Positions 5,305-46,376 of a DNA stretch of 48,171 nucleotides are shown in pieces (position 1 is the first letter of the stretch; the number at the start of each line of letters is the position of its first letter). This stretch comes from Bacilli bacterium. GTDB taxonomy: Bacteria; Bacillota_I; Bacilli_A; Haloplasmatales; Haloplasmataceae. Below the pieces are notes generated by a model. It was not told the DNA's origin. It searched no databases and was given only the letters and a program-made list of their open reading frames with translations. The stretch is taken from assembly GCA_012516175.1 (NCBI GenBank), contig JAAYWZ010000031.1, forward strand, positions 1 to 48,171, written 5' to 3'. Made by a program: the position numbers and the translations under genes.

Positions 5305-5327
5305 TTATATATATCAAAAAAAAATTA

Positions 5328-5580
5328 CAGACATCGAAGAGGAGAGTAGCTTTTAATGAGCGTCCCAGCAAGTCCGGGTTGATGCGAGCCGGATACGTAG
5401 TTAAGAGTGAAGAACACCTCGGAGTCTCTTACCGAAATATACTTAATTAATAAGTATAGAGTAGACTAAGACGGCTTCCTACCGTTAACAAGGAATACCT
5501 AGAGTGGTCTCTTTATGAGACAAAAAGGGTGGTACCGCGGATTACAGTCATTCGTCCCTAACGAATGGCTGTTTTTTTGT
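5328..5580 (+). ncRNA. T-box riboswitch leader, probably tRNA-Asn specific
   Basis: T-box leaders sense uncharged tRNA and choose between antiterminator and terminator. The canonical T-box AGGGTGGTACCGCG is at 5526-5539. An intrinsic terminator follows: ACAGTCATTCGT (5544-5555) pairs with ACGAATGGCTGT (5561-5572), then a T run. Stem I shows the AGTA bulge (about 5345-5348). On its 3' strand the specifier region GAAGAACA puts AAC, an asparagine codon, at 5413-5415. This agrees with asnA and asnS downstream. The UGGU tRNA-acceptor contact would pair with discriminator A, or G by wobble. The 340-base gene-free stretch here is fully explained by promoter plus leader. Confidence 0.95.
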
Positions 5581-5612
5581 ACATGAAATCTTATAAAGGG
5601 ACAGGTGAATGT

Positions 5613-6614
5613 ATGGCATTAAGAATTCCTGAAAACTACTCTAGTAAATTATCGCTTTTACAAACGCAAATTGCGATTAAAAAACTCAAAGACTTTTTCG
5701 AACGACAACTTGCTTACGAATTAAATTTAATTCGAGTTACAGCTCCTCTATTTGTACAACCAGAAACAGGTTTAAATGATAACTTGAATGGTGTTGAAGT
5801 ACCAGTGTCCTTTACTATCAATGATAATCAAGAACTTCAAATTGTTCATTCGCTTGCAAAATGGAAAAGAATGGCTTTGTATAAATACAACATTAGAGAA
5901 AAAAAAGGAATTTATACAGATATGAATGCGATTAGGAAGGATGAACAAGTAGATAACCTGCATTCTTATTACGTAGATCAATGGGATTGGGAAGCAGTTA
6001 TCTCAGAAAAAGACAGAAATGAACGTAAGTTAAAAGAGATTGTGAGACGCATTTATAAAGTGTTACGCATTACAGATGAGTATATTGTTGATGAGTTTCC
6101 CCAATTAAGTCGGAAACTACCAGAAAAAATCTACTTCATCACCAGTCAAGAACTTGAAGATATGTATCCCCATCTCACCCCAAAAGAACGTGAAGATAAA
6201 ATCTGCAAGAAATATAAAGCAGTATTCATTATGCAAATTGGCAAGGTATTAAAGAGTGGTCAGATTCATGATGGTCGCTCCCCAGATTATGATGACTGGG
6301 ATTTAAACGGTGATATTCTCGTATATAATGAAGTGCTAGATTGTGGTTTTGAGTTATCTTCAATGGGGATAAGAGTGAATAAAGAATCATTATTAACTCA
6401 ATTAACCGTCGCAAATAACTTAGAACGATTAGAATTACCCTATCACCAAATGATTATGGAAGAAAAACTTCCTTATACCATTGGTGGGGGGATTGGTCAA
6501 TCACGTTTATGTATGTTTTATTTAGAAAAAGCTCATATTGGCGAAGTTCAATGTTCAGTATGGCCTCATGATATGGTAGAAAAGTGTAGAAAAAACAACA
6601 TTTTCTTATTATAA
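5613..6614 (+). CDS. asnA: Aspartate-ammonia ligase (asparagine synthetase A)
   Basis: AsnA makes asparagine from aspartate, ammonia and ATP in the cytoplasm. It is a class II aminoacyl-tRNA synthetase-like enzyme. The 333-residue product (about 330 in E. coli) begins MALRIPENYSSKLSL and carries family blocks such as LFVQPETGLNDNLNGVEVPVSF, TDMNAIRKDE, DQWDWE and the C-terminal GGGIGQSRLCMFYLEKAHIGEVQ. The ATG at 5613 is chosen because AGGTGA lies just upstream; the longer reading frame begins inside the terminator hairpin. First gene of the T-box operon with rmuC and asnS. Confidence 0.96.
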   Translation: MALRIPENYSSKLSLLQTQIAIKKLKDFFERQLAYELNLIRVTAPLFVQPETGLNDNLNGVEVPVSFTINDNQELQIVHSLAKWKRMALYKYNIREKKGIYTDMNAIRKDEQVDNLHSYYVDQWDWEAVISEKDRNERKLKEIVRRIYKVLRITDEYIVDEFPQLSRKLPEKIYFITSQELEDMYPHLTPKEREDKICKKYKAVFIMQIGKVLKSGQIHDGRSPDYDDWDLNGDILVYNEVLDCGFELSSMGIRVNKESLLTQLTVANNLERLELPYHQMIMEEKLPYTIGGGIGQSRLCMFYLEKAHIGEVQCSVWPHDMVEKCRKNNIFLL

Positions 6615-9316: not shown

Positions 9317-10765
9317 TTACACTCTTTTCCATAACCTAGGTGTAAATAGGATTAAGATGGGGAAGATTTCTAACCTGCCAGCTAACATAATAATGGATAA
9401 GATTAGTTTTGAAAAATTCGAAAAGAAAGCAAAGTTTTCCATTGGTCCAACTAAATTTAGTCCTGGACCTACATTACTTATACAAGTTAATACAGCAGTA
9501 AAGCTTGATAGAATATCAATGTTTTCAAAACTAATGAGCAAAGTACCTAATATTACAATGAAAAGATAAGCTATTATAAACGAAACAACACCTCTTAACA
9601 CATCTTCCTCAACTCGTTTATGTTCAAACTTAGTTGTTATAACTTGATTAGGATGAAGTGAATATTTTACTTCATTTTTAATTGTTTTTCCTAAAATAAT
9701 AACTCTTGATAATTTTATGCCACCACAGGTTGAACCAGCACATCCACCAGTTATCATTAAAATAATCAATATCCATTTTGAAAGTGAAGGCCAAATGTTA
9801 AAATCAGTTGATGTCATTCCTGTTGTAGAAATAATAGATGCTACTTGGAAAAATGAATGATGTAAACTATTTCTAAAATTACCATAAAGTTTCATAATAT
9901 TAATCGCTATGATTAATGTTGAAATAATAACGATTATGAGAAATAAGCGGAGTTCTTCATTTTTAAGAATCTGCTTACCTTGACCAATTAAAATGTAATA
10001 GTATAGATTAAAGTTAATCGCAAAAAGCAACATAAAAACTGTAATAATGATTTCTGCAGGGATATTTTGATATGCCATTATACTAGTATTCTTTATACTA
10101 AATCCACCTGTTCCTGCCACTGATAAAGCATGGAGGATACTATCATACAGTGGCAAACCAGAAGTTTTGAGTAAAATAGTAAGAATTAAGGTTAATACAA
10201 TATAAATTAGATATAGAATGATGGCTGTTACTTTTACTTTTGATACTAGTTTACCAACTTTTGGTCCTGGGCTTTCTGCTTTTAGTATATACATACTGCG
10301 AGGATCAACATTCGGTAGAATGGCTAATACGAAAACGAGAATTCCCATTCCTCCAAGCCATTGAGAAAAGCTCCGCCAAAATAACAATCCTTTGCTTAAA
10401 CTTTCTATATCAGAAATAACCGTTGCTCCAGTCGTAGAAAATCCTGATGCTGATTCGAAAAAGGCATCAAAGAAATTATTAATGGCACCACTAAGAATAA
10501 AGGGTAAACAACCAAAGATACTAACAAGAATCCAACTTAAACTAACAATTGCGAATGCTTCTTTTGGAAAGTAATTATTATTAGTTGTTTTTAGTAACTT
10601 AACTAATAATAGCCCACATATTAGTAATATTCCACTAGTGGTAATGAAAGGTAGGATTACTTCCATTTCGTGATATATTAGAGATACAATTAACGGTAAA
10701 ATAAGTAAAGCGGCTTCAACTAATAAGATTTTACCTAATGTTTGAAAGACTATCTTATAGTTCAT
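9317..10765 (-). CDS. trkH: Trk-type potassium uptake protein, membrane subunit
   Basis: TrkH/KtrB-type channel that takes up K+ in the membrane, gated by the cytoplasmic TrkA protein. The 482-residue product is strongly hydrophobic with the four pore-loop repeats visible: SGFSTTGATVI, GTGGFSIKN, STTGMTSTDF and SNVGPGLN. The conserved glycines of the selectivity filters are present. It starts 4 bases after the trkA stop, with a GGAGT ribosome site overlapping that stop, so the pair is translationally coupled. It is controlled by the cyclic-di-AMP riboswitch upstream of trkA. Confidence 0.94.
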   Translation of the reverse strand: MNYKIVFQTLGKILLVEAALLILPLIVSLIYHEMEVILPFITTSGILLICGLLLVKLLKTTNNNYFPKEAFAIVSLSWILVSIFGCLPFILSGAINNFFDAFFESASGFSTTGATVISDIESLSKGLLFWRSFSQWLGGMGILVFVLAILPNVDPRSMYILKAESPGPKVGKLVSKVKVTAIILYLIYIVLTLILTILLKTSGLPLYDSILHALSVAGTGGFSIKNTSIMAYQNIPAEIIITVFMLLFAINFNLYYYILIGQGKQILKNEELRLFLIIVIISTLIIAINIMKLYGNFRNSLHHSFFQVASIISTTGMTSTDFNIWPSLSKWILIILMITGGCAGSTCGGIKLSRVIILGKTIKNEVKYSLHPNQVITTKFEHKRVEEDVLRGVVSFIIAYLFIVILGTLLISFENIDILSSFTAVLTCISNVGPGLNLVGPMENFAFFSNFSKLILSIIMLAGRLEIFPILILFTPRLWKRV

Positions 10766-10769
10766 AATA

Positions 10770-12125
10770 TTACTCCAGTATATCTTCTAAATCTCGAATA
10801 AATTTATTTGTAGTTATCACAACAACACTGTCTTTAGATTGTAAGTAATCATTACCACTAGGAATTATGACTTTGTTATTTCTGATTATACTTGCAATTA
10901 AAATATTTGGTTTAATCGCCAAATCTTTAAGTTTGATTCCAGTGTATTTGGTCGATTCTGGTATATAGAATTCGATAGCTTCCACTTGATTATTGACAAG
11001 TTGATATAAAGTTTTGACTTCAGAGTCAATAGTATTTTGTAGTGAGCGGACATAGCGTAAAATGATATTTGTAGTGACCTCTTTTGGAGAAACTATAGTG
11101 TCGAGTTCCGTTTGTCTTAAAATTTCAGTAAGATCATATCGATTAATCTTTGTAATAACTTTTGGTACATTTTTTAATTTTGCATATAGCGATATAATGA
11201 TGTTTTCCTCATCAAAACCTGTTAAGGTGACTAAAGCATCTACATATTCAATACCTTCCGCTTGAAGCAATGTTTGGTCGCTACCTTCACCATGTATGAT
11301 ATCGGCTTCAGGTAGTAATTCACTTAGCATCTGGCAACGCTCTTTATCTAATTCAATGACTTTTACGGCGACATTATTATCAATTAGTTTTTGTGCAAGA
11401 TAATAGGAAATCCTACTACCACCTATTATCATAACTTGTTTTGCTTTATTTTTTAACTGACCTATTTTTTTGAAAAATTGATTAATTTCTGTTTTTTGTG
11501 CATTTATAAAGATTTTATCGTCTGCCTGCAAAACGAAACTACCATCAGGGATATAAGCCTGCTTATCTCTTTCGACGATACATATTAACATATTCACATT
11601 GTATTCTTTACGAATATCCATTATTCGTTTACCGATTAACGGTGAATCTTTTGGAATAGATAATCCCACTATTTCGACGCGACGGTTCGCAAAGTATTCA
11701 ACTCTTAATGCACCTGGAAATTTTAGAATTTCATGGATTTCTTCAGCTGCTGCTAATTCAGGATTTACAGTCATGCTTACGCCAAGTTCTTTACGAAAAA
11801 AATCCATTTGCTTTGAATATTCAGGATTGCGCACTCGGGCAATAGTATGATTGACTCCGCATTTCTTACTAACTAAACATGACAAAATATTTAACTCATC
11901 ACTAGGCGTACAAGCAATCAATAATTCTGTTTTATTTGCTTCAGCCTCCATTAATATTTCATAACTAGCACCATTGCCAACTACACCTTTAACATCATAT
12001 GTATTAACTATATCTTCAACAACATCTGGTAAGATATCAATCACGATAATATCGTGATTTTCTTTCACAAGGGTATTAATAATAGCTTTGCCAATTTTAC
12101 CAGCACCAACTATGATAATCCGCAT
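10770..12125 (-). CDS. trkA: Trk potassium uptake regulatory protein TrkA
   Basis: TrkA is the NAD(H)/nucleotide-binding gating ring on the cytoplasmic face of TrkH. The 451-residue protein has two tandem RCK units. The first begins with the Rossmann motif VGAGKIGKA (about residues 5-13). A second Rossmann-like start, MIIGGSRISYYLA, occurs near residue 232. Each is followed by a TrkA-C domain, ending near 215 and 450. A GGAGGT ribosome site precedes the ATG. First gene of the leftward trkA-trkH operon, 340 bases of regulatory leader upstream. Confidence 0.94.
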   Translation of the reverse strand: MRIIIVGAGKIGKAIINTLVKENHDIIVIDILPDVVEDIVNTYDVKGVVGNGASYEILMEAEANKTELLIACTPSDELNILSCLVSKKCGVNHTIARVRNPEYSKQMDFFRKELGVSMTVNPELAAAEEIHEILKFPGALRVEYFANRRVEIVGLSIPKDSPLIGKRIMDIRKEYNVNMLICIVERDKQAYIPDGSFVLQADDKIFINAQKTEINQFFKKIGQLKNKAKQVMIIGGSRISYYLAQKLIDNNVAVKVIELDKERCQMLSELLPEADIIHGEGSDQTLLQAEGIEYVDALVTLTGFDEENIIISLYAKLKNVPKVITKINRYDLTEILRQTELDTIVSPKEVTTNIILRYVRSLQNTIDSEVKTLYQLVNNQVEAIEFYIPESTKYTGIKLKDLAIKPNILIASIIRNNKVIIPSGNDYLQSKDSVVVITTNKFIRDLEDILE

Positions 12126-12175: not shown

Positions 12176-12212
12176 AAAAAATATTATTCATCGTACCATA
12201 TCATTCTTTCAA

Positions 12213-12335
12213 AGCTTACGAGGTTAGCTGTCGGGCTCGGTTTGAAAGATAACCTAATTTATTATATTAATAAATAATATTAATAAATATTCGCCCCAAG
12301 AGTGGGTCCCCCGCTTCTCATTAGAGAATTAAGCT
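12213..12335 (-). ncRNA. Cyclic-di-AMP riboswitch (ydaO/yuaA class)
   Basis: Read on the minus strand, this stretch carries the conserved blocks of the ydaO aptamer: the P1 strand AGCTTAAT, then GAGAAGCGGGGGACCCA, GGGGCGAAT, CCGAGCCCGACAGCTAACC and the closing TCGTAAGCT, which pairs with the first block. The class binds c-di-AMP and turns genes off when it is abundant. Potassium uptake genes are its best-known targets in Bacilli, matching trkA-trkH. With promoter, aptamer and terminator, it accounts for most of the gene-free 12126-12464. Confidence 0.95.
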
Positions 12336-12354
12336 ACTTATTTAGTACTAAATA

Positions 12355-35373: not shown

Positions 35374-37431
35374 ATGAAACGGATTATCGTTCTTGGTGGA
35401 GGATATGGCGGTATCTTAACAGCAAAACACCTAGAAAAGAAGTTAAGAAAAGAAGAAGTTAAAATCACATTAATCGATAAAAACCCCTATCACACCATGT
35501 TAACGGAATTACATGAAGTCGCTGCCGGACGTGTTCACGAAGATTCAATTAAAATATATTTTGATCAAGTGATAGCCGGTCGCAAGATTGATTTTGAATT
35601 AGCTGAAATTAAGAAGATTGATTTTCAAAATCAAAAACTTATCTCAGATAAAGCTGAATATCCTTATGATTATTTAGTAATTGGTACCGGTTGTAAACCT
35701 ACCTTCTTTGGTCATAATGAATATAAAGAACATGTCTTTACTTTATGGTCATTAGAAGATGCTGTAGTTTTACATGAGCATATCGTTGAGCAATTCCGCA
35801 AAGCAGCTAAAGAAAGCGATGCTGAAGTCAGAAAACAAATGTTAACATTTGTGGTTGTTGGGGCTGGCTTCACAGGTGTTGAAATGGCTGGTGAGCTTGC
35901 TGAATATGTTCCCGCTCTATGTCGTGAACATCACATTAATCGTGATGAAGTAACCATCAAGTTAATGGATATGGCACCACGGGTTCTACCAACTTTCCCT
36001 GAAAAACTTTCACAAAATGCGGTTAAGAAATTAAATAAATTAGGTGTTGAATGTTTAACTGGTCAACCTTGTCATAATGTCACTAGTGAATCAATTAACT
36101 TCGGTGAAGAAGTAATTAAGGCAGAAACTATTATTTGGACTACTGGTGTTGAAGGTTCTTCATTGATAGATACCATCACTGAAGTTAAGAAGCAAGGTAG
36201 AGGACGTTTAGTTGTTAATAAATACCTCCAAACAGAAGAATACAACAACGTTTATGTTGTCGGTGACAATATCTTCTATATTCCAGAAGGACAAAACAAT
36301 CCTGTACCACAAATGGTAGAAAATGCGGAAGCATCATCTAAACTTGTTGCACATAACATCATTGCGGATATCAAAGGAGAAGAAAAACGTGATTACAAAC
36401 CAGCATTCCATGGTGCAATGGTTTGTATCGGTGGTCGGAAAGGTTTAGCCCAAGTTGGAACACCAAAGCGGATGTTCAACATCAAGAATAGTTTTATTGC
36501 TTTATTTATAAAACACTTCATTAATGTTATTTACTTTATGCAAGTATTAGGTTGGACTAAAGTTTGGTCCTATATTAAACATGAATTCTTCAATGTTCCT
36601 AATAATCGTAGTTTTGTTGGTGGCTTATTCTCTAAGAAGACACCAAGCATTTGGACCGTGCCAGTACGTCTATGGTTAGGATTCATGTGGCTCTTACAAG
36701 GATTACCCAAAGTTGTTCATAAGTTATCCGGTGGTTGGGATACTTATTGTAAGTTAAATGAATTCCCAGCAACTTTCGTTAATAAAGGTTTAGTATGTAC
36801 TGCACTTGGGGAAACAGTAAACTTCGTAAATGCGACACCATTTAAAAATAACTTTACTGTTCCTGAAACAACATGGAAAAATGCGGATGGTTTCTTTAAT
36901 AAGTTCCTAACTTATATTAATGAATTCTTTGCTGGCTTCAAACCAAATGTATCCACAAATTGGGGCATTTCCTACAACATTAAATATGTATTCGCATATT
37001 ACCAACAAAACTTCAAATGGATCGGTTGGCTATTCGTTGTCTTTGAATGGTTTTATAATATCTTCATGATTATCTCTGAATGGTTCATGAATGTGATTGT
37101 AGCTTATATGGCACCTTTCTTCGAATTCATGCTTGCCATTGGAGAATTAGGTATTGGTATTCTCTTAATCCTTGGTCTATTTACAGTACTAGCTTCAACT
37201 GGTTCACTAATTCTAACATTAATGGTCATTGTAGGTAGCCTCTTCTCATATGATGGTATCTTCTTATCAGAATTAATTTGGTACTTAGTGGCTAGCATTG
37301 TCCTCTTGAACTTTGGCGGTACTGGTCATGTGTTATCACTAGACTATTATGTAATGCCTAAAGTACATGCTTTCTTGCAAAAGATACCATTCATTAAGAA
37401 ATGGTACCTTTATGGCGAAAAAGCTAATTAA
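35374..37431 (+). CDS. ndh2: Type II NADH dehydrogenase with C-terminal membrane (DoxX-like) extension
   Basis: A 685-residue quinone reductase of the NDH-2 type. Residues 1-400 form the flavoprotein: FAD motif VLGGGYGGILTAKHL, NADH motif VVVGAGFTGVEMAGELAE near 165-182, VYVVGDN near 290. Ordinary NDH-2 ends near 400. Here a DoxX-like helix (RLWLGFMWLLQGLPKVVHKL, about 430-449) and further membrane segments (about 550-575, 585-615, 620-655) follow. The same extended form is the Ndh2 of Listeria flavin-based electron transfer. GAAGGAGG precedes the ATG. Co-transcribed with the lipoprotein gene 32 bases downstream. The quinone is inferred to be (demethyl)menaquinone. Confidence 0.9.
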   Translation: MKRIIVLGGGYGGILTAKHLEKKLRKEEVKITLIDKNPYHTMLTELHEVAAGRVHEDSIKIYFDQVIAGRKIDFELAEIKKIDFQNQKLISDKAEYPYDYLVIGTGCKPTFFGHNEYKEHVFTLWSLEDAVVLHEHIVEQFRKAAKESDAEVRKQMLTFVVVGAGFTGVEMAGELAEYVPALCREHHINRDEVTIKLMDMAPRVLPTFPEKLSQNAVKKLNKLGVECLTGQPCHNVTSESINFGEEVIKAETIIWTTGVEGSSLIDTITEVKKQGRGRLVVNKYLQTEEYNNVYVVGDNIFYIPEGQNNPVPQMVENAEASSKLVAHNIIADIKGEEKRDYKPAFHGAMVCIGGRKGLAQVGTPKRMFNIKNSFIALFIKHFINVIYFMQVLGWTKVWSYIKHEFFNVPNNRSFVGGLFSKKTPSIWTVPVRLWLGFMWLLQGLPKVVHKLSGGWDTYCKLNEFPATFVNKGLVCTALGETVNFVNATPFKNNFTVPETTWKNADGFFNKFLTYINEFFAGFKPNVSTNWGISYNIKYVFAYYQQNFKWIGWLFVVFEWFYNIFMIISEWFMNVIVAYMAPFFEFMLAIGELGIGILLILGLFTVLASTGSLILTLMVIVGSLFSYDGIFLSELIWYLVASIVLLNFGGTGHVLSLDYYVMPKVHAFLQKIPFIKKWYLYGEKAN

Positions 37432-37463
37432 TACTCCTAAGGTAGAAAGAAGGAGGAATGAAA

Positions 37464-38369
37464 ATGAAAAAAATCTTATATGCGGTAGTGTTACTTGCAT
37501 TCATCGTTATAATAACATCCTGTGGTATTAACACTCATTATTACAACTTAGGGAATAAAAATATTTATTACTTCAATTATGCTGAAACTAATACACCTAT
37601 TACTTTAGAAATCAATCCTTATTCATTCTTACAAGAAGAAAATAAGTGGTTAAGCAATCGCAAAGATATTAAATGGAGCGGTGCTCGTGCTAGCAATCCC
37701 CAAAAATATTATGATGTAGTGGTTGAATATCGTGAATATGGTTCTCATCAACGTTATCAAGAATTCGAATTAAAAGACGGATTAATGGTTTTTGAAAACC
37801 CTCATCAAGAATTAGGCAACAACTCTAAGTTCGAGTTTAAATTCCACTTTATTGACAAAGAAACTCAAGATAAGAAAACCATGATTAATTATTATGGTAT
37901 CTTTACATTTAAAAAATCTCCTGCAAATCCTGAAGTAAATGAAGTAACAATTCTCGTAAATGAAAGTTATACATTATTAAATAATGTCGTTGAATATAGT
38001 GGCGAAGATCGTTTAACTAATGCTCAATTAACAGAAAAATACAATGTTGAATATAAAATCTATAAAAATGGGAATATTTTAGAAATCGAAGTAGAAAATG
38101 GTACAGTAGCATTCACAGAACCAGGTACTTATGATGTAGTTGTTAAATTAACAGCTAAGAGTTCAGGTTCTAACAACAATAGTGATGACAACTCTGGTGC
38201 ATCACCAGCTAGCACTTCTAGTGGTAGTAGTGAATCAGATGCAACATCTAGTGCAACAGGAACTGGAGATAGCGATGGTACAAGTGGTGCTACTCCAGGA
38301 ACAGGTAATAATACACAAACAGGATATTCACTCGAAATTCGCTACACTATCAAAGTGACTGAAGAATAA
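37464..38369 (+). CDS. Uncharacterised lipoprotein downstream of ndh2
   Basis: A 301-residue secreted lipoprotein: signal peptide KKILYAVVLLAFIVIITSC with lipobox cysteine at about residue 20. The body (25-230) is beta-rich with repeats resembling immunoglobulin-like folds (GTYDVVVKLTA near 220). Residues about 232-280 form a low-complexity Ser, Thr, Gly, Asp and Ala linker, followed by a last strand. No flavin, heme or known enzymatic motif was seen. ATG 37464 is chosen since AGGAGG lies 7 bases upstream. Its position in the ndh2 transcript suggests a role in surface electron transfer or assembly, but that is a guess. Confidence 0.85.
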   Translation: MKKILYAVVLLAFIVIITSCGINTHYYNLGNKNIYYFNYAETNTPITLEINPYSFLQEENKWLSNRKDIKWSGARASNPQKYYDVVVEYREYGSHQRYQEFELKDGLMVFENPHQELGNNSKFEFKFHFIDKETQDKKTMINYYGIFTFKKSPANPEVNEVTILVNESYTLLNNVVEYSGEDRLTNAQLTEKYNVEYKIYKNGNILEIEVENGTVAFTEPGTYDVVVKLTAKSSGSNNNSDDNSGASPASTSSGSSESDATSSATGTGDSDGTSGATPGTGNNTQTGYSLEIRYTIKVTEE

Positions 38370-38381
38370 AAACAATGAAAA

Positions 38382-38413
38382 AGGACATATTGTCAGTAAT
38401 GACAATATGTCCT
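38382..38413. terminator. Bidirectional terminator, lipoprotein gene / hepT
   Basis: AGGACATATTGTCA (38382-38395) pairs perfectly with TGACAATATGTCCT (38400-38413), a 14-bp stem between convergent genes. The leftward side carries the better T run. Confidence 0.88.
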
Positions 38414-38416
38414 AAT

Positions 38417-39373
38417 TTAATGTGTTCTTTTATCCAACATTTTGAGGATTTCGATTAAAACTGTCTTCTTGTCGTGATTTAGACCTTTAATGGCGTTTTT
38501 CGCCTTTTTAAGGTACTTTCGACTAATTTTTTGACTCTTTTTAATCCATTTACTGTTCTTAATATAGTTTATACAGTAATTAAAATCTGCTATTGAAGAT
38601 TGTTTGGATAATTGTCTAATATGAGCATTAATCCTCTTATCTTTCAGTGCTAATATTACTGGTAAAGTAATATTACCGTTAATTAAATCAGCACCATTAG
38701 GTTTGCCTAAATGGGTGGTATCTTGCGTAAAATCTAAGATATCATCATTAATTTGGAATGAAATCCCGAGATTAATCCCGTAGTTATATAATCTTTTTAA
38801 GGTTTTTTCATCAGCACCTGCAAGTTTCGCTCCTCCTAAAAGAGAAGCAGCAATTAAAAGTGCTGTCTTATTTTTGGTTTTGGTGATGTAATCCTCATAA
38901 GTAATATCAAAATTAAATAACAAGCGTTGTTGTGTGATTTCTGACCTACACAAATCAGTTAGACTAAAACTATCATAGTAATATTCTTCAAATTCATATT
39001 TTGATACAATTTCACAGCATAAGCTAACTAGATAGTTACCAAGAATTAATGTATTTGTAATACCATTAATAGTGTGCAAGGTTGGTTTACCACGTCTAAT
39101 CTCCGCCTTATCGATGATATCATCATGAATTAAACTAGCTGTATGGATTAATTCAAAAAGTGCAGCAAGATTATATACTTCATCTTCATCAGCATTACCA
39201 AAATAACTACCTAAAACTGTAAAAATCGGTCTCAATCTTTTACCAGAAGAAAATAAAAGTTGTGATAGTTGTTCCCGATAATGTTCTGGTAAATTAGGGT
39301 CGCTTTCAATAATCGCTTTTATTTTAGAATCAAGCAGTTTTTTATTTACATTACATATAGTGGCTAAGTCCAT
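38417..39373 (-). CDS. Polyprenyl diphosphate synthase, catalytic subunit (HepT-like)
   Basis: A trans-prenyltransferase that builds the long isoprenoid chain of menaquinone. The 318-residue protein has both aspartate-rich motifs: LIHDDIIDKAEIRRGKP (DDxxD near residue 80) and FQINDDILDFTQD (near 207). SGKRLRP near 50 is also typical. An AGGTG ribosome site precedes ATG 39373, which lies inside the end of the upstream small-subunit gene (10-base overlap). Between ndh2 and the PplA-like gene, it parallels DmkB in the Listeria electron transfer locus. Chain length cannot be read from sequence here. Confidence 0.9.
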   Translation of the reverse strand: MDLATICNVNKKLLDSKIKAIIESDPNLPEHYREQLSQLLFSSGKRLRPIFTVLGSYFGNADEDEVYNLAALFELIHTASLIHDDIIDKAEIRRGKPTLHTINGITNTLILGNYLVSLCCEIVSKYEFEEYYYDSFSLTDLCRSEITQQRLLFNFDITYEDYITKTKNKTALLIAASLLGGAKLAGADEKTLKRLYNYGINLGISFQINDDILDFTQDTTHLGKPNGADLINGNITLPVILALKDKRINAHIRQLSKQSSIADFNYCINYIKNSKWIKKSQKISRKYLKKAKNAIKGLNHDKKTVLIEILKMLDKRTH

Positions 39374-39780
39374 TGTGGCACCTGCTTCTTTAAAGTTGTA
39401 ATAATATTTTCTAATAATTTATCTTCACTTTTATTAGTTAATAAATTTAACATAATTTCTTTAGTACTATAAGCAAAGGTTTTTAACAGATCAAACAGAT
39501 TATGTTTATAAAGAATTTCCGCAACATAACTACTGATAAAATCACCTAATAATACAGCATAAGGAAGATAATCATGTTGTTCTTGCGCTGTAAGATGATA
39601 ATCTAAAGCAGTATAAAAGAGTGAGTAACATGCTGATATTAATTCAGTATATTCTGTCAAATTATGTTCTGTTAATGCCTGTACCATTTCTTGGTACTTA
39701 TCTTCGCGTTTAAGAAATGGTAAAGGGGTATTATCATTGATGAAGTTATTGATATATTCGATAAAAGGATTAGTCATCAT
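39364..39780 (-). CDS. Probable heptaprenyl diphosphate synthase component I (HepS-like)
   Basis: A 138-residue helical protein just upstream of the catalytic subunit. The segment YHLTAQEQHDYLPYAVLLGDFISSY recalls the GD(Y/F)-S-S/G-Y block of the small, non-catalytic subunit (HEPPP_synt_1) that fixes product length in two-component synthases; it is shorter and diverged. The start at 39780 is chosen because GAGGTG lies 6 bases upstream; an in-frame ATG at 39801 lacks a site. Overlap with hepT supports a subunit role. The identity is inferred from context and one motif. Confidence 0.6.
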   Translation of the reverse strand: MMTNPFIEYINNFINDNTPLPFLKREDKYQEMVQALTEHNLTEYTELISACYSLFYTALDYHLTAQEQHDYLPYAVLLGDFISSYVAEILYKHNLFDLLKTFAYSTKEIMLNLLTNKSEDKLLENIITTLKKQVPQWT

Positions 39781-39800
39781 ATAAAACACCTCGTATGCCA

Positions 39801-39960
39801 TTAATTATTCTTACATATTATCACACAATTGTCAAATAGTATTCAAAAAGCACGAATAAATTCACAAAGTCACAGAGTTTATTAATTTGTGAAACTGTTT
39901 GCATAATTGATTAACTTTTTCACAAAATCACTTGTGTTTATCACAAATTTATTGTATAAT
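39801..39960. promoter_or_regulatory. Divergent control region of pplA and hepS-hepT with repeated TTCACAAA elements
   Basis: Rightward promoter for pplA: TTGTGT (39932-39937), 17 bp, TATAAT (39955-39960). Repeated elements: TTCACAAAGTCAC (39861-39873), minus-strand CAGTTTCACAAA (39886-39897), TTCACAAAATCAC (39919-39931) and ATCACAAA (39940-39947), the last between -35 and -10. TTGTG and CACAA halves around the promoter form an imperfect palindrome (39932-39946). A leftward promoter candidate reads TTGAAT, 18 bp, GATAAT on the minus strand near 39818-39847. The half-site TTGTGA resembles Rex or CRP/FNR sites but the spacing does not fit either. Confidence 0.6.
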
Positions 39961-39996
39961 ACACTCGTGAAAAACATCATAATCAAGGAGGAAATC

Positions 39997-41046
39997 ATGA
40001 AAAAATTATTTACAATTTTTTCACTTGTACTATTAGCAGTAATTCTTAGTGCTTGTACAGGAAAAGAAGGTAAATTCGATTACGAAAATGGCGTATACTT
40101 CGCAATTCAAGATCGTACAGAAGGTCAAACTTACAGATATTGGGTAACAGTTACAATTAAAGACAAGAAAATCACCAATGTTACTTGGGATGCTTACCAT
40201 GTTGATGGTGCAGCTGTAAGATGTAAAGGTGAAAGCAAATACGTATGTTCAGAAAAAGGTAACTATGGTGACATGGGTGGCCAATATGGTGACTGGCATG
40301 AACAAGCTAAGAGAGCCACTGATTGGATCGTTAAGAACCAAAAGATTGGTAAAGACATTACAATCGGTAACGACGGTAAAACAGATGCAATTTCTTCAGT
40401 ATCAGTTACTGTTAAAGAATTATTTGATTTAATCGATGAAGCATTCGAAAATGGTCCAGTAGCAAAAGGCGATTACAATGATGGTTTCTACTATGTTGAA
40501 ACTGCATTAACAGATAAAACTGCTACATACGCTGTATTAAAAGAAGGTACTACTAATGAATATTTAGAATTCACTGAAACATTCAAAACATCAACTATGG
40601 GTTCATTCTTAGTAGTAAACGGTACAATTGTTTTAGCTGACATTAATGCAAGACATGATGCTTATGTATATGAAACAGATAGCAATGGTAAGTTCGTTAA
40701 AGTAGCTACTACAGAAGAAGGTACTGCATACAATCTTATCAAAAACGCTATTGGTAAAGTAGAAAACGAAGAAGTTGTTATCAGCAACAAGAGCAACAAT
40801 GAAAAATTTGTTAAATATGTAACAAAAGATTCCGCTGGTAAATGGTATGGTATGTCCGATACTGGTAAAGTTGAATGGAATCTCCAAGTTCAAAACATTG
40901 AAAAATTAATCTTACAAAACCAAGGTTTAACAGTTAATGATGGTAAAATTAATGGTTTATCATCTGATGCAACAACAGGTGCTTCAATTCACGTTACAGA
41001 CATTATCACTGTTTGGAACCTATTCAGCGCAGACGCTACAAAATAA
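39997..41046 (+). CDS. pplA: PplA-like flavinylated electron-transfer lipoprotein (two FMN-binding domains)
   Basis: A 349-residue lipoprotein with lipobox ILSAC (Cys20) and two FMN-bind-type repeats. Each ends in a motif like the ApbE flavinylation site D-x-x-(S/T)-G-A-(S/T): D130-A-I-S-S-V-S136 and D324-A-T-T-G-A-S330, so serines 136 and 330 are the likely FMN attachment points; the first is less canonical. In Listeria, PplA carries electrons from membrane quinones to extracellular flavin or iron. AAGGAGG precedes ATG 39997. The gene is convergent with apbE, which would load it. Confidence 0.85.
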   Translation: MKKLFTIFSLVLLAVILSACTGKEGKFDYENGVYFAIQDRTEGQTYRYWVTVTIKDKKITNVTWDAYHVDGAAVRCKGESKYVCSEKGNYGDMGGQYGDWHEQAKRATDWIVKNQKIGKDITIGNDGKTDAISSVSVTVKELFDLIDEAFENGPVAKGDYNDGFYYVETALTDKTATYAVLKEGTTNEYLEFTETFKTSTMGSFLVVNGTIVLADINARHDAYVYETDSNGKFVKVATTEEGTAYNLIKNAIGKVENEEVVISNKSNNEKFVKYVTKDSAGKWYGMSDTGKVEWNLQVQNIEKLILQNQGLTVNDGKINGLSSDATTGASIHVTDIITVWNLFSADATK

Positions 41047-41105
41047 TTAATCTATTTTATAGATAAAAAATAAAGGCTCTTTGTCAAATAGTGTTGATAA
41101 TGCGA

Positions 41106-41142
41106 AAGGTTAGAATCTCAATCTAGATTCTAACCTTATTTT
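41106..41142 (+). terminator. Terminator after pplA
   Basis: AAGGTTAGAATC (41106-41117) pairs perfectly with GATTCTAACCTT (41126-41137), followed by ATTTT. An earlier small hairpin ATCTAT/ATAGAT lies just after the stop codon. Confidence 0.85.
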
Positions 41143-41157
41143 GATATTAATAAATAA

Positions 41158-41186
41158 AGAAGGCTAGATGCTAAACCTAACCTTCT
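41158..41186 (-). terminator. Terminator of the fum-mae-aspA-apbE operon
   Basis: On the minus strand AGAAGGTTAG pairs with CTAGCCTTCT (one G-U pair), overlapping the apbE stop and followed by a T-rich tail. Confidence 0.8.
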
Positions 41187-42279
41187 AAATAAATGGTTCA
41201 AAGTCATATAATTCATCAATATTACTAGTTTTGTAGAAATTCATATCGTTATCTATAAATACTGCCGCAACATCGGGGAATTGCCCTTCAAGAAACTTAA
41301 TTCCATTTTCAATTCCCAAGGCGAATAATGATGTTGATAGGGCATCTGCAAGAGCAGAACTATCGCAAATAATTGTTACACTAGAAATATTATTATCATA
41401 TGGATAACCAGTATCTGGATTTAAGATATGATGATATGTTTTGCTTGTGTCATTTATGTCACGGAAAAAGCGTTCATATGTACCAGATGTTACAATTGTT
41501 TTATCAACGATATATACATTTGCAATAGAATCTTCAGCAGAGAAACGTGGATCACGAATACCAATAGCCCACTCTTCACGTCCATCAAATCGTTTTTCAT
41601 AACGTTTACCGATAGCAAAAATATTACCACCAAGGTTAATAATGGCATGTTCAATGCCATTAGCTTTAAAATAATCTGCTAGAACATCTGCTGCATAACC
41701 TTTGGCAATAGCACCTAAATCAATTGCCATTCCTTTAAGAGGTAATAGAACAGTTTTATTTTCTTCATCTAGTTCTACTAATCTATAATCAATTAGGGGT
41801 AAAATTGCTTCGATTTCTTCTTGCGATGGTGGAGCTGCGTCTTTACCTGCTTTATTGTTTATGTCCCATAAATCTACCAAAGGACCAATGGTAGGATCAA
41901 ATTTACCATCAGTAAGTTCTGCGAATTCTAAACCTAATTTCAAAACTTCAAATAAATCATAGCTTACTTTAAAGGGTTGTCCTGAACCAGCTGATTGGTT
42001 AAGTTTATATAATTCAGGTTCGAAATCACCATCTTTTGTTTTTTGGAAGGTGAGTTGAATATGTTTAATGATATCTTCTGCGCCTTTCCATAATTCGGAG
42101 TCACTATTATATTTTTTTGTATCCCACACTCTAAGGTATATGAGCGTATCAAAATACTGAAAGTAATCAATATTAGATTCGACTAACTTAGTACGGTTAC
42201 TAGTAGGATTACAACTAGTTAAAAATACTGTGAGTATGAGTATAAGCAAGGATGCAATTTTACGCATTATTGTCACCAT
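41185..42279 (-). CDS. apbE: FAD:protein FMN transferase ApbE, lipoprotein form (FmnB-like)
   Basis: ApbE takes FMN from FAD and attaches it to Ser/Thr of target proteins outside the membrane. The 364-residue protein has a lipobox LTSC (near residue 23), family blocks PLVDLWDINNK, AIDLGAIAKGYAAD near 190-203, INLGGNIFAIG, and the late D/T-rich metal site VTIICDSSALADALST. Its target is probably the convergent PplA-like lipoprotein. The gene overlaps aspA by 20 bases and is therefore the last gene of the fumarase-malic enzyme-aspartase operon, an unusual partner set. Confidence 0.93.
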   Translation of the reverse strand: MVTIMRKIASLLILILTVFLTSCNPTSNRTKLVESNIDYFQYFDTLIYLRVWDTKKYNSDSELWKGAEDIIKHIQLTFQKTKDGDFEPELYKLNQSAGSGQPFKVSYDLFEVLKLGLEFAELTDGKFDPTIGPLVDLWDINNKAGKDAAPPSQEEIEAILPLIDYRLVELDEENKTVLLPLKGMAIDLGAIAKGYAADVLADYFKANGIEHAIINLGGNIFAIGKRYEKRFDGREEWAIGIRDPRFSAEDSIANVYIVDKTIVTSGTYERFFRDINDTSKTYHHILNPDTGYPYDNNISSVTIICDSSALADALSTSLFALGIENGIKFLEGQFPDVAAVFIDNDMNFYKTSNIDELYDFEPFI

Positions 42280-43720
42280 TATTCTCCTGTTTCTTCAATT
42301 TCTTTATAAGTAGTTCTTCTCCTGATATACCAGGGGACGTTAAATTATTGATATTGAGAATGACATCTAATTCTTCTTGGGTAAGAATTTGTTTCTCAAT
42401 AACTAATTCTTTGACAGAGCGATTTAACTTAATTGCTTCTTTCGCAATCTCTGAAGCTAGTTTATAACCAATATGAGGTGCAAGTGCTGTAACAATTCCA
42501 GCACTACGCTCTACATAATGAATACACATGTCTTTATTAACAGTAATACCTGTGATGGCTTTTTCAGAGAAAGTACGAATACCCCTTCTTAGTATATCGA
42601 GAGATTGAAAGATATTTGCATAAATAACTGGACCAAAGACATTTAACTCTAATTGGCCAGCTTCACATGCCTTAGTAATTGTAACATCATTACCGATGAT
42701 TTGAAAAGCAATTTGATTAACAACTTCAGGTATAACTGGATTAACTTTACCAGGCATAATGGATGACCCTGGCTGCATTTGTGGTAAGTTAATCTCATTA
42801 AAGCCTGCCTTGGGACCGGAAGCCATTAAGCGAAGGTCATTAGCGGTCTTCGAGAGATTTACGGCACAAGTCTTTAAGGCGCTTGATAACCATACAAATG
42901 GATCGAGGTTACGCGTAGCATCGACTAGATCATCTGCTTGTTTAAAGTCGATGTGAGTAAGTTCCGCTAAAATTTGAACGACGTTTTCAATATATTTGCG
43001 GTTCGCATTTAACCCCGTACCGACAGCAGTTGCACCCATGTTTAACAGTTTAAGATCTTCTAGACCATCTTCAATTCTTTTAATATCTCTTTCTAATGCG
43101 GATGCAAACGCATTAAATTCTTGACCTAAACGAATGGGTACGGCATCTTGAAGATGCGTTCTACCCATTTTTATTATTCCCCCAAATTCATTTGCTTTAT
43201 CTAAATAAGCTTTATGTAAATGACGCATTTCTACTATTAGGCGATTTGCCAGCTTAATCGTCGCAATTTTAGCTGCAGTAGGAATAACATCATTGGTAGA
43301 TTGACCAAAATTTACGTGATCATTGGGGTGAACAATATCATAGACCCCTTTTTTACCGCCAAGTAGTTCTTGAGCACGGTTAGCGATTACCTCATTAGCA
43401 TTCATATTAATGGAAGTGCCAGCCCCACCTTGAATCATATCGGTAATAAAGTGATTTTGAAACTTACCAGCTATGATTTCATCGCATGCTTGGACAATAG
43501 CTTGGCTAATATTTTCCGATAACATTCCTGCTTGATAATTCGCTAGCGCTGCTGCTTTTTTAGTAATGGCTACGGCTTTTATCATTTCACTATGAACTTT
43601 TTGTTTTGTAATTTGAAAGTTTTCTTTCCCGCGTAGGGATTGGATACCATAATACGCATCTTTAGGGACGAGTTTTTCCCCTAACGAATCACTTTCGATG
43701 CGATATTTGCTCGTGTCCAT
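42260..43720 (-). CDS. aspA: Aspartate ammonia-lyase (aspartase)
   Basis: AspA deaminates aspartate to fumarate and ammonia. The 486-residue protein starts with the aspartase-type block VPKDAYYGIQSLRGKENF and has the superfamily signature GSSIMPGKVNPVIPE near residue 320; the catalytic serine loop lies in it. Length and N-terminus favour AspA over class II fumarase, and a separate class I fumarase is encoded upstream in the same operon. AGGAGAAGG precedes the ATG, 12 bases after the malic enzyme gene. Confidence 0.92.
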   Translation of the reverse strand: MDTSKYRIESDSLGEKLVPKDAYYGIQSLRGKENFQITKQKVHSEMIKAVAITKKAAALANYQAGMLSENISQAIVQACDEIIAGKFQNHFITDMIQGGAGTSINMNANEVIANRAQELLGGKKGVYDIVHPNDHVNFGQSTNDVIPTAAKIATIKLANRLIVEMRHLHKAYLDKANEFGGIIKMGRTHLQDAVPIRLGQEFNAFASALERDIKRIEDGLEDLKLLNMGATAVGTGLNANRKYIENVVQILAELTHIDFKQADDLVDATRNLDPFVWLSSALKTCAVNLSKTANDLRLMASGPKAGFNEINLPQMQPGSSIMPGKVNPVIPEVVNQIAFQIIGNDVTITKACEAGQLELNVFGPVIYANIFQSLDILRRGIRTFSEKAITGITVNKDMCIHYVERSAGIVTALAPHIGYKLASEIAKEAIKLNRSVKELVIEKQILTQEELDVILNINNLTSPGISGEELLIKKLKKQENNGDNNA

Positions 43721-43732
43721 TCTTACCTTCTC

Positions 43733-44920
43733 CTATAATTCTTTAATTCTTGCCACATTTGTTTCAATCGCCGCTTTGATAACTGCTTCACGAACAGCCG
43801 AGGCAATACGTTTATCAAAAGGTGAAGGAATGATGTAATCTGGATTTAATTCCTCATCTTTAATTAAATGAGCTATTGCGTAACTTGCGGCTAATTTCAT
43901 TTCATCATTGATTTTTCGGGCACGACAATCAAGTGCACCACGGAAGAGTCCTGGAAATGCGAGAACATTATTAACTTGGTTAGGATAATCGCTTCGCCCT
44001 GTTCCAACGATTTTTGCTCCCGCTTCTTTTGCTTCATCAGGCCAAATTTCTGGTGTAGGGTTGGCTAATGCAAAAATAAAAGAATCTTTATTCATGGATT
44101 CAACCATATCTTTTGTTAATATTCCACCTTGAGATACACCGACGAATACATCTGCACCTACCAAAGCTTCTCTAAGCCCACCAGTTTTATCACTCTTATT
44201 AGTTATTTCTAAGAGTTCTAGTGTTAAAGCGTTGTAGGTATCCTTTTGCGATTTATGGATAATACCTTTGCTGTTTAAGGCAATGATATCCTTGACTCCT
44301 AATTTGTACAACATGCGGATAATTGAACTACCAGCTGCTCCTGCACCACAAACAACCACAATTAGGTCTTCTAACTTCTTACCTGTTAACCGACAACTGT
44401 TAATTAAAGCCGCAATTGTCACTATTGTGGTTCCATGTTGATCATCATGAAAGACGGGAATATCAAGTTCTTCTTGTAAGCGGCGTTCAATTTCGACACA
44501 GCGAGGAGCTGCAATATCTTCTAAGAAAATCCCACCAACTGTAGGAGCAATTAATTTACATGTTTTAATGATTTCTTCGACATCTTGCGTATCAAGGCAT
44601 AAAGGAAAAGCATCAACGCCACCGAATTCTTTCAAAAGTATAGCTTTACCTTCCATGACTGGTAAGGCTGCTTCTGGACCAATATTACCTAATCCTAAAA
44701 CGGCACTACCATCGGTGACGATTGGTACAAGATTACCTTTATTAGTATAGCGATATACTTCTTCTTTATTATTATGGATTACTCGGCAAGGTTCAGCAAC
44801 ACCAGGAGAATATGCCAAACTCAATTCTTGTTGATTAGTTACAGGCACTTTAGAGCGGATTTCTAACTTACCGCGATGTTTTTCATGAAGTAATAGGGAT
44901 TCTTCATATACATTACTCAT
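43733..44920 (-). CDS. Malic enzyme (malate dehydrogenase, oxaloacetate-decarboxylating)
   Basis: Converts malate to pyruvate and CO2 with reduction of NAD or NADP. The 395-residue short bacterial form has YTNKGNLVPIVTDGSAVLGLGNIGPEAALPVMEGK near 55-90, the metal-binding VFHDDQHGTTIV near 155-167, and the dinucleotide motif VVVCGAGAAGSSI near 185-197. GGAGGAT precedes the ATG, which overlaps the fumarase beta-subunit stop by 8 bases. Cofactor preference cannot be decided. With AspA and fumarase it completes aspartate to pyruvate. Confidence 0.94.
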   Translation of the reverse strand: MSNVYEESLLLHEKHRGKLEIRSKVPVTNQQELSLAYSPGVAEPCRVIHNNKEEVYRYTNKGNLVPIVTDGSAVLGLGNIGPEAALPVMEGKAILLKEFGGVDAFPLCLDTQDVEEIIKTCKLIAPTVGGIFLEDIAAPRCVEIERRLQEELDIPVFHDDQHGTTIVTIAALINSCRLTGKKLEDLIVVVCGAGAAGSSIIRMLYKLGVKDIIALNSKGIIHKSQKDTYNALTLELLEITNKSDKTGGLREALVGADVFVGVSQGGILTKDMVESMNKDSFIFALANPTPEIWPDEAKEAGAKIVGTGRSDYPNQVNNVLAFPGLFRGALDCRARKINDEMKLAASYAIAHLIKDEELNPDYIIPSPFDKRIASAVREAVIKAAIETNVARIKEL

Positions 44921-45470
44921 TTTTATCCTCCATTCGATATTTACTTATATTATCTAACATTAAATCATTTCCATAAATATCATTAACAACAAAGGCAGGA
45001 AAGTCCACAACTTCTAATTCGCGAATAGTTTCCGCCCCTAAATCTTCATAAGCGATGGTCTTAACGCTTCTTATTGTTCTGGCTATTAAGGCTCCAGCAC
45101 CACCAATCGCCGCGAAGTAAATGGCTTTATGTTTGACAATCGCTTCTTTAACATAATCTCTGCGTTCGCCTTTACCAATCATTCCTTTTAGTCCTGCCTC
45201 TAGTAAGACTGGTGTATAAGGGTCCATTCTACTACTCGTAGTTGGACCTGCTGAACCGATAACTTGTCCTGGTTTAGCTGGGGTAGGACCAACATAATAG
45301 ATGATTTGACCTTTTATATCAAAAGGTAAAGGTTGATTGTTCTTTAAAAGTTCAACTAGTCGTTTATGGGCAGCATCACGAGCGGTATAAATTTTACCAG
45401 TAATATAGACTTGATCACCTGATCGTAAATTTTCAATAACTTCATCCGTTAAGGGTGTAGTAATTTTCAA
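44913..45470 (-). CDS. Class I fumarase, beta (C-terminal) subunit
   Basis: The 185-residue C-terminal subunit of an iron-sulfur fumarate hydratase, in the two-protein form common in anaerobes. It has GDQVYITGKIYTARDAAHKR near 18-37, GPTPAKPGQVIGSAGPTTSSRMD near 65-87, and FFAAIGGAGAL-type block (YFAAIGGAGALI). Translation starts at TTG 45470 after a strong GGGGGAGA. It lies 12 bases after the alpha subunit gene. A tartrate dehydratase is a related alternative, but aspartase and malic enzyme next door favour fumarase. Confidence 0.92.
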   Translation of the reverse strand: MKITTPLTDEVIENLRSGDQVYITGKIYTARDAAHKRLVELLKNNQPLPFDIKGQIIYYVGPTPAKPGQVIGSAGPTTSSRMDPYTPVLLEAGLKGMIGKGERRDYVKEAIVKHKAIYFAAIGGAGALIARTIRSVKTIAYEDLGAETIRELEVVDFPAFVVNDIYGNDLMLDNISKYRMEDKNE

Positions 45471-45482
45471 TTTAATCTCCCC

Positions 45483-46322
45483 CTATAACACTATTTTTTT
45501 ATGTCTTGCGGCATGACATTGAGTATTAACCGCTACAGGTAATGATGCAATATGACATGGATAAACATTAACTTTAACTGCTAAGGCGGTTTGTGTTCCC
45601 CCAAAACCTAATGGTCCAATACCAAGTTTATTGATTTCTTCTAATAATTCTTCTTCTAGTTTGCGCGCAATTGGATCCTCACTTACATCATCGATGGGAC
45701 GCATAAGGGCTTCCTTTGCAAGGAGAGCGCATTTCTCAAAGGTGCCGCCGATACCAATCCCCACAATGATTGGTGGACAAGGTTTCCCCTTCGCATCAAA
45801 AATCGTGTCCAACACTAGTTTTTTTACTCCCTCATAACCGTCCGCAGGGGTAAGCATCTTGACTAAACTCATGTTTTCGCTACCCGCTCCTTTAGGTGCT
45901 AATGTGATGGTTAAGGAATTACCCATCACAATTTTTGTATGAATGACTGCTGGAGTATTATCACCAGTATTAACACGATCTAAGGGATGTTTTACTACAG
46001 ACTTACGTAAATAGCCATGTAAATAACCGTTACGAACACCTTCATTAATCGCATCATAAATATCATAATCGATATGAATCAGATTACCGATTTCGAGAAA
46101 GACGACAACCATTCCTGTATCTTGACACATTGGAACAGAATCATTACGAGCGATAAAATCATTTTCGATGATTTGGTCAAGCACCTTTTGTCCAATTGGT
46201 GAAGTCTCTAATTTACGACTGCGTTTTAAGGCATTTAACACATCATCTTCTATGTAATAATTGGCTTCGATACATAAACGTTCAACTGCTTCAACGACTA
46301 AATCCCTTTCAATATAACGCAT
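45483..46322 (-). CDS. Class I fumarase, alpha (N-terminal, Fe-S) subunit
   Basis: The 279-residue catalytic subunit carrying a 4Fe-4S cluster. The three expected cysteines are visible: in SVPMCQDTGM, GGTFEKCALLAK and NTQCHAARH. ATG 46322 is chosen since AAAGGTGG lies 8 bases upstream; a GTG at 46334 is less likely. First gene of the leftward operon fumA-fumB-malic enzyme-aspA-apbE. A TATAAT on the minus strand at 46355-46360 is a probable -10. An oxygen-sensitive fumarase fits an anaerobic life style. Confidence 0.93.
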   Translation of the reverse strand: MRYIERDLVVEAVERLCIEANYYIEDDVLNALKRSRKLETSPIGQKVLDQIIENDFIARNDSVPMCQDTGMVVVFLEIGNLIHIDYDIYDAINEGVRNGYLHGYLRKSVVKHPLDRVNTGDNTPAVIHTKIVMGNSLTITLAPKGAGSENMSLVKMLTPADGYEGVKKLVLDTIFDAKGKPCPPIIVGIGIGGTFEKCALLAKEALMRPIDDVSEDPIARKLEEELLEEINKLGIGPLGFGGTQTALAVKVNVYPCHIASLPVAVNTQCHAARHKKIVL

Positions 46323-46376
46323 TTTATGCACCACCTTTATTAAATCTACATACTATTATAACGTACAAATGGAAAT

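Follow-up and report, generated by a model that had tools for sequence, protein, structure and literature searches.

A probable flavin-based electron transfer locus in a Haloplasmataceae bacterium and its lipoprotein with several ApbE motifs in a predicted disordered loop

Does a bacterium of the family Haloplasmataceae export electrons from reduced nicotinamide adenine dinucleotide (NADH) to its surface, and what might a lipoprotein encoded directly after its NADH dehydrogenase contribute? The question arises from a window of 48,171 nucleotides, the whole of contig JAAYWZ010000031.1 (C199) in the 2.26 Mb Bacilli genome GCA_012516175.1 (207 contigs, 99.4% complete). We studied positions 35374-42279, where the open reading frames encode, in order, a type II NADH dehydrogenase (Ndh2, +), the lipoprotein (+), the large subunit of a prenyl diphosphate synthase (-), a protein of 145 residues (-), a PplA-like lipoprotein (+) and an ApbE-type flavin transferase (-). 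Gene content, gene order, motifs and conservation were read directly from the sequences. The locus is of a known kind, with its genes dispersed; what is new is the lipoprotein, in which ApbE motifs recur along a loop predicted to be disordered. The initial annotation had proposed that NADH electrons pass to the cell surface by flavin-based extracellular electron transfer, and this is well supported by the nearly full set of proteins known from Listeria and Lactiplantibacillus and by the conserved neighborhood. We consider it fairly probable that the locus is the core of such a system and that the lipoprotein is a second ApbE substrate, bearing flavin mononucleotide (FMN) on flexible loop arms.

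The lipoprotein gene (37458..38369, +) is the second gene of the ndh2 transcript. It starts 26 nucleotides after ndh2, and the unit terminates in a strong bidirectional, terminator-like hairpin with a 14-bp stem (38382..38413, both strands), which separates it from the prenyl synthase unit. The protein of 303 residues is predicted to be extracytosolic, with an N-terminal hydrophobic segment and a lipobox cysteine at residue 22 (ITSC22). The initial annotation had seen here a lipoprotein of no recognized kind, and indeed no Pfam or NCBIfam family matched above its cut-off; the canonical ApbE motifs described below had been overlooked. Among the known ApbE-substrate folds in Pfam (FMN_bind, NqrB/RnfD, DUF2271, DUF3570, Flavodoxin_4 and FMN_red) there was no match either. 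The AlphaFold2 model consists of two confident beta-rich parts, and a fold search returned immunoglobulin (Ig)/cadherin-like proteins as best matches, with low template modeling scores. Between the last two beta strands (residues 223-233 and 291-301) lies a loop of 57 residues (residues 235-291; 38160..38330, +) that is predicted to be disordered, its predicted local distance difference test (pLDDT) values being below 50 at residues 237-288. Orthologs occur in seven of the eight genomes of the family in our comparison set (f1; the window genome G000 plus G001-G007), and none was convincing outside the family among 395 genomes. Weak matches there, with E-values of about 1e-5 to 1e-3, aligned mainly at the signal and lipobox end and were not accepted as relatives.

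All ApbE-type motifs of this protein fall within the loop. We searched for the canonical form D-x-x-[ST]-G-A-[ST] and for a relaxed form D-x-x-S-[GSD]-A-[ST]. The loop holds two canonical motifs, DDNSGAS (38184..38204, +) and DGTSGAT (38274..38294, +), with a near-copy in which the glycine is replaced by serine, DATSSAT, between them (38238..38258, +). Because the copies are written with different codons, they are not the product of simple recent DNA slippage. When the loop was shuffled with its composition kept, two canonical motifs arose at P ~7.5e-5. The loop of the same-genus genome G001 holds three canonical copies (P <2.5e-5), and those of G003 and G006 hold one each (P 0.0015 and 0.0042). 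The relaxed motif is present in the loops of all seven orthologs, three of which have that form only.

The motif is also scarce in the genome at large. A degenerate DNA pattern for it occurs nine times in the window genome, and only four of these sites lie inside a real gene, in its reading frame, and end in Ser or Thr: one in RnfG, one in the PplA-like protein and two in the lipoprotein. A site in pyruvate phosphate dikinase was discarded because it ends in R, as was one antisense to a feoB-like gene, in a frame of 19 codons. In other genomes of the family some canonical motifs lie within proteins of the cytosol or of transport, which sets the background at a low level, though above zero. As a separate observation, G006 encodes an unrelated lipoprotein of 380 residues (L117, G006:C6:37074 region, ORF 457-1599) that matches no Pfam family and has a D/S/T-rich C-terminal tail with the canonical motifs DDWSGAS and DDSSGAS (shuffle P 4e-5).

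The surrounding genes place the lipoprotein in context. The product of ndh2 (35374..37431, +; 685 residues) matches Pyr_redox_2 over residues 3-319 (E=1.4e-37), and hydropathy indicates hydrophobic C-terminal segments at about residues 550-656, which bears out the NADH dehydrogenase with a long membrane extension that had first been described; matches to DoxX/DoxD are weak. Orthologs share 66-93% identity within the family and 48% in G028, a genome outside it, and the C-terminal region is common to all of them. The predicted membrane tail is not unusual, because the G028 relative has it too.

The PplA-like lipoprotein (39997..41046, +) had been reported to carry two ApbE motifs. The second is canonical (DATTGAS at residue 324; 40966..40986, +), but the first is degenerate (DAISSVS; 40384..40404, +). 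Similar drift at the glycine position is seen at the first site in the family orthologs (SSVS, ASVS, TTVS, SSVT), and more distant relatives have SGVT or TGVS forms. In another protein, a G-to-A or A-to-V change cut flavinylation to about 50% (PMC12052999), so by analogy a weaker but real modification of this first site is possible. The initial annotation had made its proposal depend on membership of the FMN-bind/PplA group. The protein scores 15.9 bits against Pfam FMN_bind, under the cut-off of 22, and has no NCBIfam match, though NCBIfam includes a PplA model; yet a profile built from its relatives finds solved structures of the FMN-bind type (2kzx, E=9.9e-35, which itself carries DAISGAT; 3o6u, E=1.4e-5). 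The AlphaFold2 model (mean pLDDT 84.5) repeats the strand/helix pattern twice, consistent with two FMN-bind-type domains.

Other proteins of this kind were noted. A small FMN_bind lipoprotein of 134 residues on contig C69 of the window genome (L002:1486-1890) carries EAISGAT, corresponds to the C-terminal half of the PplA model in NCBIfam and adjoins a LysM/glycosidase-like protein; it is a further candidate carrier. PplA-like two-domain lipoproteins also occur in four small genomes (1.3-1.5 Mb) of another family, f9 (L050-L053 in G088, G048, G072 and G095); the sequence read around these genes showed no homologue of ndh2 or apbE. The neighbors of the L051 gene resemble glycogen synthesis genes and lepA.

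ApbE (41185..42279, -) is a lipoprotein FAD:protein FMN transferase (FAD, flavin adenine dinucleotide), as first annotated (PF02424, E=2.2e-81). It is FmnB-type. Its best solved relative is 7esa (E=4.8e-62), and Listeria FmnB is its nearest match among solved structures; the residues named for FmnB (Ser-Arg-His-Asp) have possible counterparts in the alignment. The gene is the last of a fumA-fumB-mae-aspA-apbE unit and overlaps aspA by 20 nucleotides; the rest of the unit encodes an aspartase/fumarase-type lyase, malic enzyme, fumarase beta and fumarase alpha (42260..46334, -). Terminator-like hairpins follow both the PplA-like gene (41106..41137, +) and apbE (41158..41186, -). Since apbE shares a transcript with the genes for these carbon-metabolism enzymes (aspartase, malic enzyme and fumarase), electron export may serve, among other uses, to dispose of NADH from aspartate and malate oxidation.

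Of the two-subunit prenyl diphosphate synthase originally proposed, the large subunit is secure (38417..39373, -; PF00348 polyprenyl_synt, E=1.9e-57). It is DmkB/HepT-like and scores 248.7 bits against the HepT model, under the model cut-off of 456.55. The protein of 145 residues next to it (39364..39801, -) has no Pfam or NCBIfam match, and its best PDB profile match, 'heptaprenyl diphosphate synthase component 1', is not significant (E=0.63). It is a putative small subunit, perhaps one that has diverged very far, and it adjoins the large subunit in all eight family genomes.

Comparison of gene neighborhoods, which the initial annotation had called for, showed that the locus order is conserved across the family. 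A search with the PplA-like protein among 149 relatives gave matches in all seven other family members, including Inordinaticella fortuita (NSKI01000006.1), where the same genes keep their order, and the Bacilli metagenome-assembled genome AS07pgkLD_206. As far as the contigs reach, the order is ndh2, lipoprotein, synthase large subunit, small subunit, pplA, apbE, aspartase, malic enzyme, fumarase beta and fumarase alpha. Among the contigs that extend so far, apbE stands beside pplA in seven genomes and the order through to fumA is kept in six (window included). Only G005 lacks the lipoprotein, and it keeps the rest of the locus. The arrangement is thus old within the family and no local accident. 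Outside the family, G028 has a compact group of synthase, ndh2, pplA and apbE.

EetA, EetB and DmkA had been reported as missing, but they are absent from the window only. A UbiA protein encoded on C57 scores above the cut-off of the NCBIfam 1,4-dihydroxy-2-naphthoate (DHNA) polyprenyltransferase model (DmkA). PF07456, which we take to be the EetB family, matches on C185 (E=1.3e-30) between HIT-family-like and uracil-DNA glycosylase-like genes. PF07009, presumably the EetA family, matches on C202 (E=2.0e-26; L011:1465-1851) between an rplQ-like gene and an energy-coupling factor (ECF) ATPase-like gene, which it directly precedes; because of this neighbor, the EetA-family gene may be tied to flavin transport. 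The pathway is thus scattered over at least four contigs. An Rnf operon lies on C172, and its RnfG carries a canonical motif.

The supply of quinone bears on the proposal as well, since the initial annotation had let it stand or fall with the presence of quinone biosynthesis genes. These are present in part: searches for MenD and MqnA/D drew a blank in all eight family genomes, while the DHNA prenyltransferase and the prenyl diphosphate synthase are there. Cytochrome bd subunit I was likewise not found in the eight genomes. Because MenD and MqnA/D were not found, the cell probably imports its quinone precursor, by analogy with Lactiplantibacillus plantarum, which is without full menaquinone synthesis and transfers electrons with exogenous DHNA (PMC10746273). 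In that species Ndh2 and PplA are needed for the DHNA-dependent current, and EetA also for a flavin-dependent route (PMC9888254).

Several observations weigh against a flavinylated loop. The loop is of low complexity and rich in S, G, A, T and D, which makes chance matches likelier. The loops of G002, G004 and G007 are without the canonical form and have only DAVSSAS or DGVSDAT, and the relaxed motif that covers them was defined after the orthologs had been inspected and is weaker evidence for that reason. One family member, G005, has no lipoprotein gene. The Rnf complex of the window genome also needs ApbE. By analogy, the G-to-S change in motifs of both PplA and the lipoprotein may make flavinylation less efficient, and the literature searched offered no example from nature of FMN on a flexible tether. 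Some of this would fit a plainer account, in which the pathway is an ordinary dispersed one, the lipoprotein is an Ig-like structural or assembly factor, the loop is a spacer and the motifs follow from its composition. The weak Ig/cadherin-like matches, the biased loop and the three of seven orthologs without a canonical motif speak for it; however, composition-preserving shuffles seldom yield the motifs observed, the motif is scarce across the whole genome and all seven loops hold the relaxed form. We regard this account as unlikely, though far from negligible.

It is more doubtful still that ApbE mainly serves Rnf together with a system related to fumarate, with a PplA-like protein that is no longer efficiently flavinylated. 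Such a division would suit the canonical RnfG motif in the Rnf operon, the place of apbE in one transcript with the aspartase, fumarase and malic enzyme genes, and the degenerate first PplA motif. Yet apbE adjoins pplA wherever family contigs reach so far, the PplA-like protein of the window genome retains one canonical motif, and its ApbE is nearest to Listeria FmnB. The window genome also yielded no fumarate reductase-type flavoprotein (FAD_binding_2 matches were weak only) and no FMN_bind-containing reductase. Relatives gave strong FAD_binding_2 matches, and the one examined as a possible ApbE target (L091, G006) was rejected: it sits in a nadA-nadB-nadC order and is, by its neighbors, L-aspartate oxidase. 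The variant route that had first been suggested, with the lipoprotein in place of EetA, EetB and DmkA, drew on its gene lying directly after ndh2 and on EetA and EetB lying outside the window. It fails, since all three families are found on other contigs, and G005 dispenses with the lipoprotein while retaining the remaining locus; we now consider a true replacement of EetA/EetB highly improbable. The lipoprotein looks like an additional ApbE substrate, not a replacement for EetA, EetB or DmkA.

In the mechanism that we favor, a flavin-based export system with the lipoprotein as second ApbE substrate, we infer the flavinylation, the electron flow, the order of the partners and the physiological use. 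Ndh2 would take electrons from NADH and pass them to quinone or to EetA/EetB, encoded elsewhere, and from there to flavin-bearing surface lipoproteins. The quinone headgroup would probably be imported in the form of DHNA, to which DmkA, encoded on another contig, would add the prenyl chain. Outside the cell, ApbE would attach FMN to the PplA-like protein and to the lipoprotein loop. A bare seven-residue motif suffices as an ApbE target, and in surface loops it works, less efficiently (PMC12052999). The two folded beta domains of the lipoprotein would be held at the membrane near Ndh2, and the disordered loop with its two or three FMN groups would form flexible tethered arms, relaying electrons from Ndh2 or EetA to PplA, free flavin or mineral acceptors.

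More tentatively, and at something short of even chances, such proteins may represent a class of ApbE substrates not described before. Its members would be surface lipoproteins that have no flavin-binding fold and bear multiple covalently bound FMN groups along a disordered loop or tail, as swinging arms beside Ndh2. At least two unrelated lipoproteins bear such motifs, so far in this family only, and in the literature searched we met no case in which ApbE sites occupy a disordered loop on a non-flavin fold. Should the loop prove to be flavinylated, bare ApbE tags would be at work in disordered parts of natural proteins, and the set of flavinylated proteins would widen beyond what domain searches find. 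Tethered, diffusing FMN would then offer a simple physical model of how electrons cross from a membrane dehydrogenase to surface acceptors. The electron-export pathway is also extended to a lineage, placed near the Mollicutes by the initial annotation, in which cytochrome bd and both tested de novo menaquinone routes were not found.

Elsewhere in the window, a pair of TrkA/TrkH-like potassium transporters (9317-12125) has a ydaO/yuaA riboswitch for cyclic di-adenosine monophosphate (12198-12345, -) upstream, and a T-box leader (5325-5562) precedes a candidate asparagine synthetase (AsnA-like) gene (5565-6614). A search of a plasmid collection gave no match.

Among known systems, the locus most resembles those of Listeria monocytogenes and L. 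plantarum (Ndh2, DmkA/B, EetA/B, PplA, FmnA/B). It shares the Ndh2 membrane tail, the DmkB-like synthase, a PplA-like protein with two predicted domains and the FmnB-type ApbE, and the EetA, EetB and DmkA families are present in the genome. No MenD was found, which is comparable to L. plantarum with its use of exogenous DHNA (PMC10746273, PMC9888254). Unlike those systems, the genes here lie on at least four contigs and apbE in a C4-dicarboxylate operon, with an extra 145-residue protein by the synthase, an extra lipoprotein with ApbE motifs and a degenerate first PplA motif. Multi-flavinylated proteins have several ApbE sites per extracytosolic protein, an arrangement suggested to serve longer-distance transfer (Meheust 2021, PMC8238504; Huang 2024, PMC11334425). 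The lipoprotein likewise has several motifs in one predicted extracytosolic protein, but those proteins repeat folded FMN-bind domains, whereas its motifs share one disordered loop with no FMN-bind domain. Known natural ApbE substrates have FMN-bind, NqrB/RnfD, DUF2271, DUF3570, Flavodoxin_4 or FMN_red folds (PMC8238504, PMC11334425). In the Flavodoxin_4 and FMN_red substrates, as here, the motif lies outside FMN-bind, in an insertion or C-terminal extension (PMC11334425); their motif, however, sits on a flavin-binding fold, while the lipoprotein has beta-sandwich-like domains that match neither. A parallel for a bare seven-residue ApbE motif, loops included, is the Flavin-tag (Tong 2021, reviewed in PMC12052999), which is engineered, whereas the lipoprotein is a natural protein for which we propose flavinylation.

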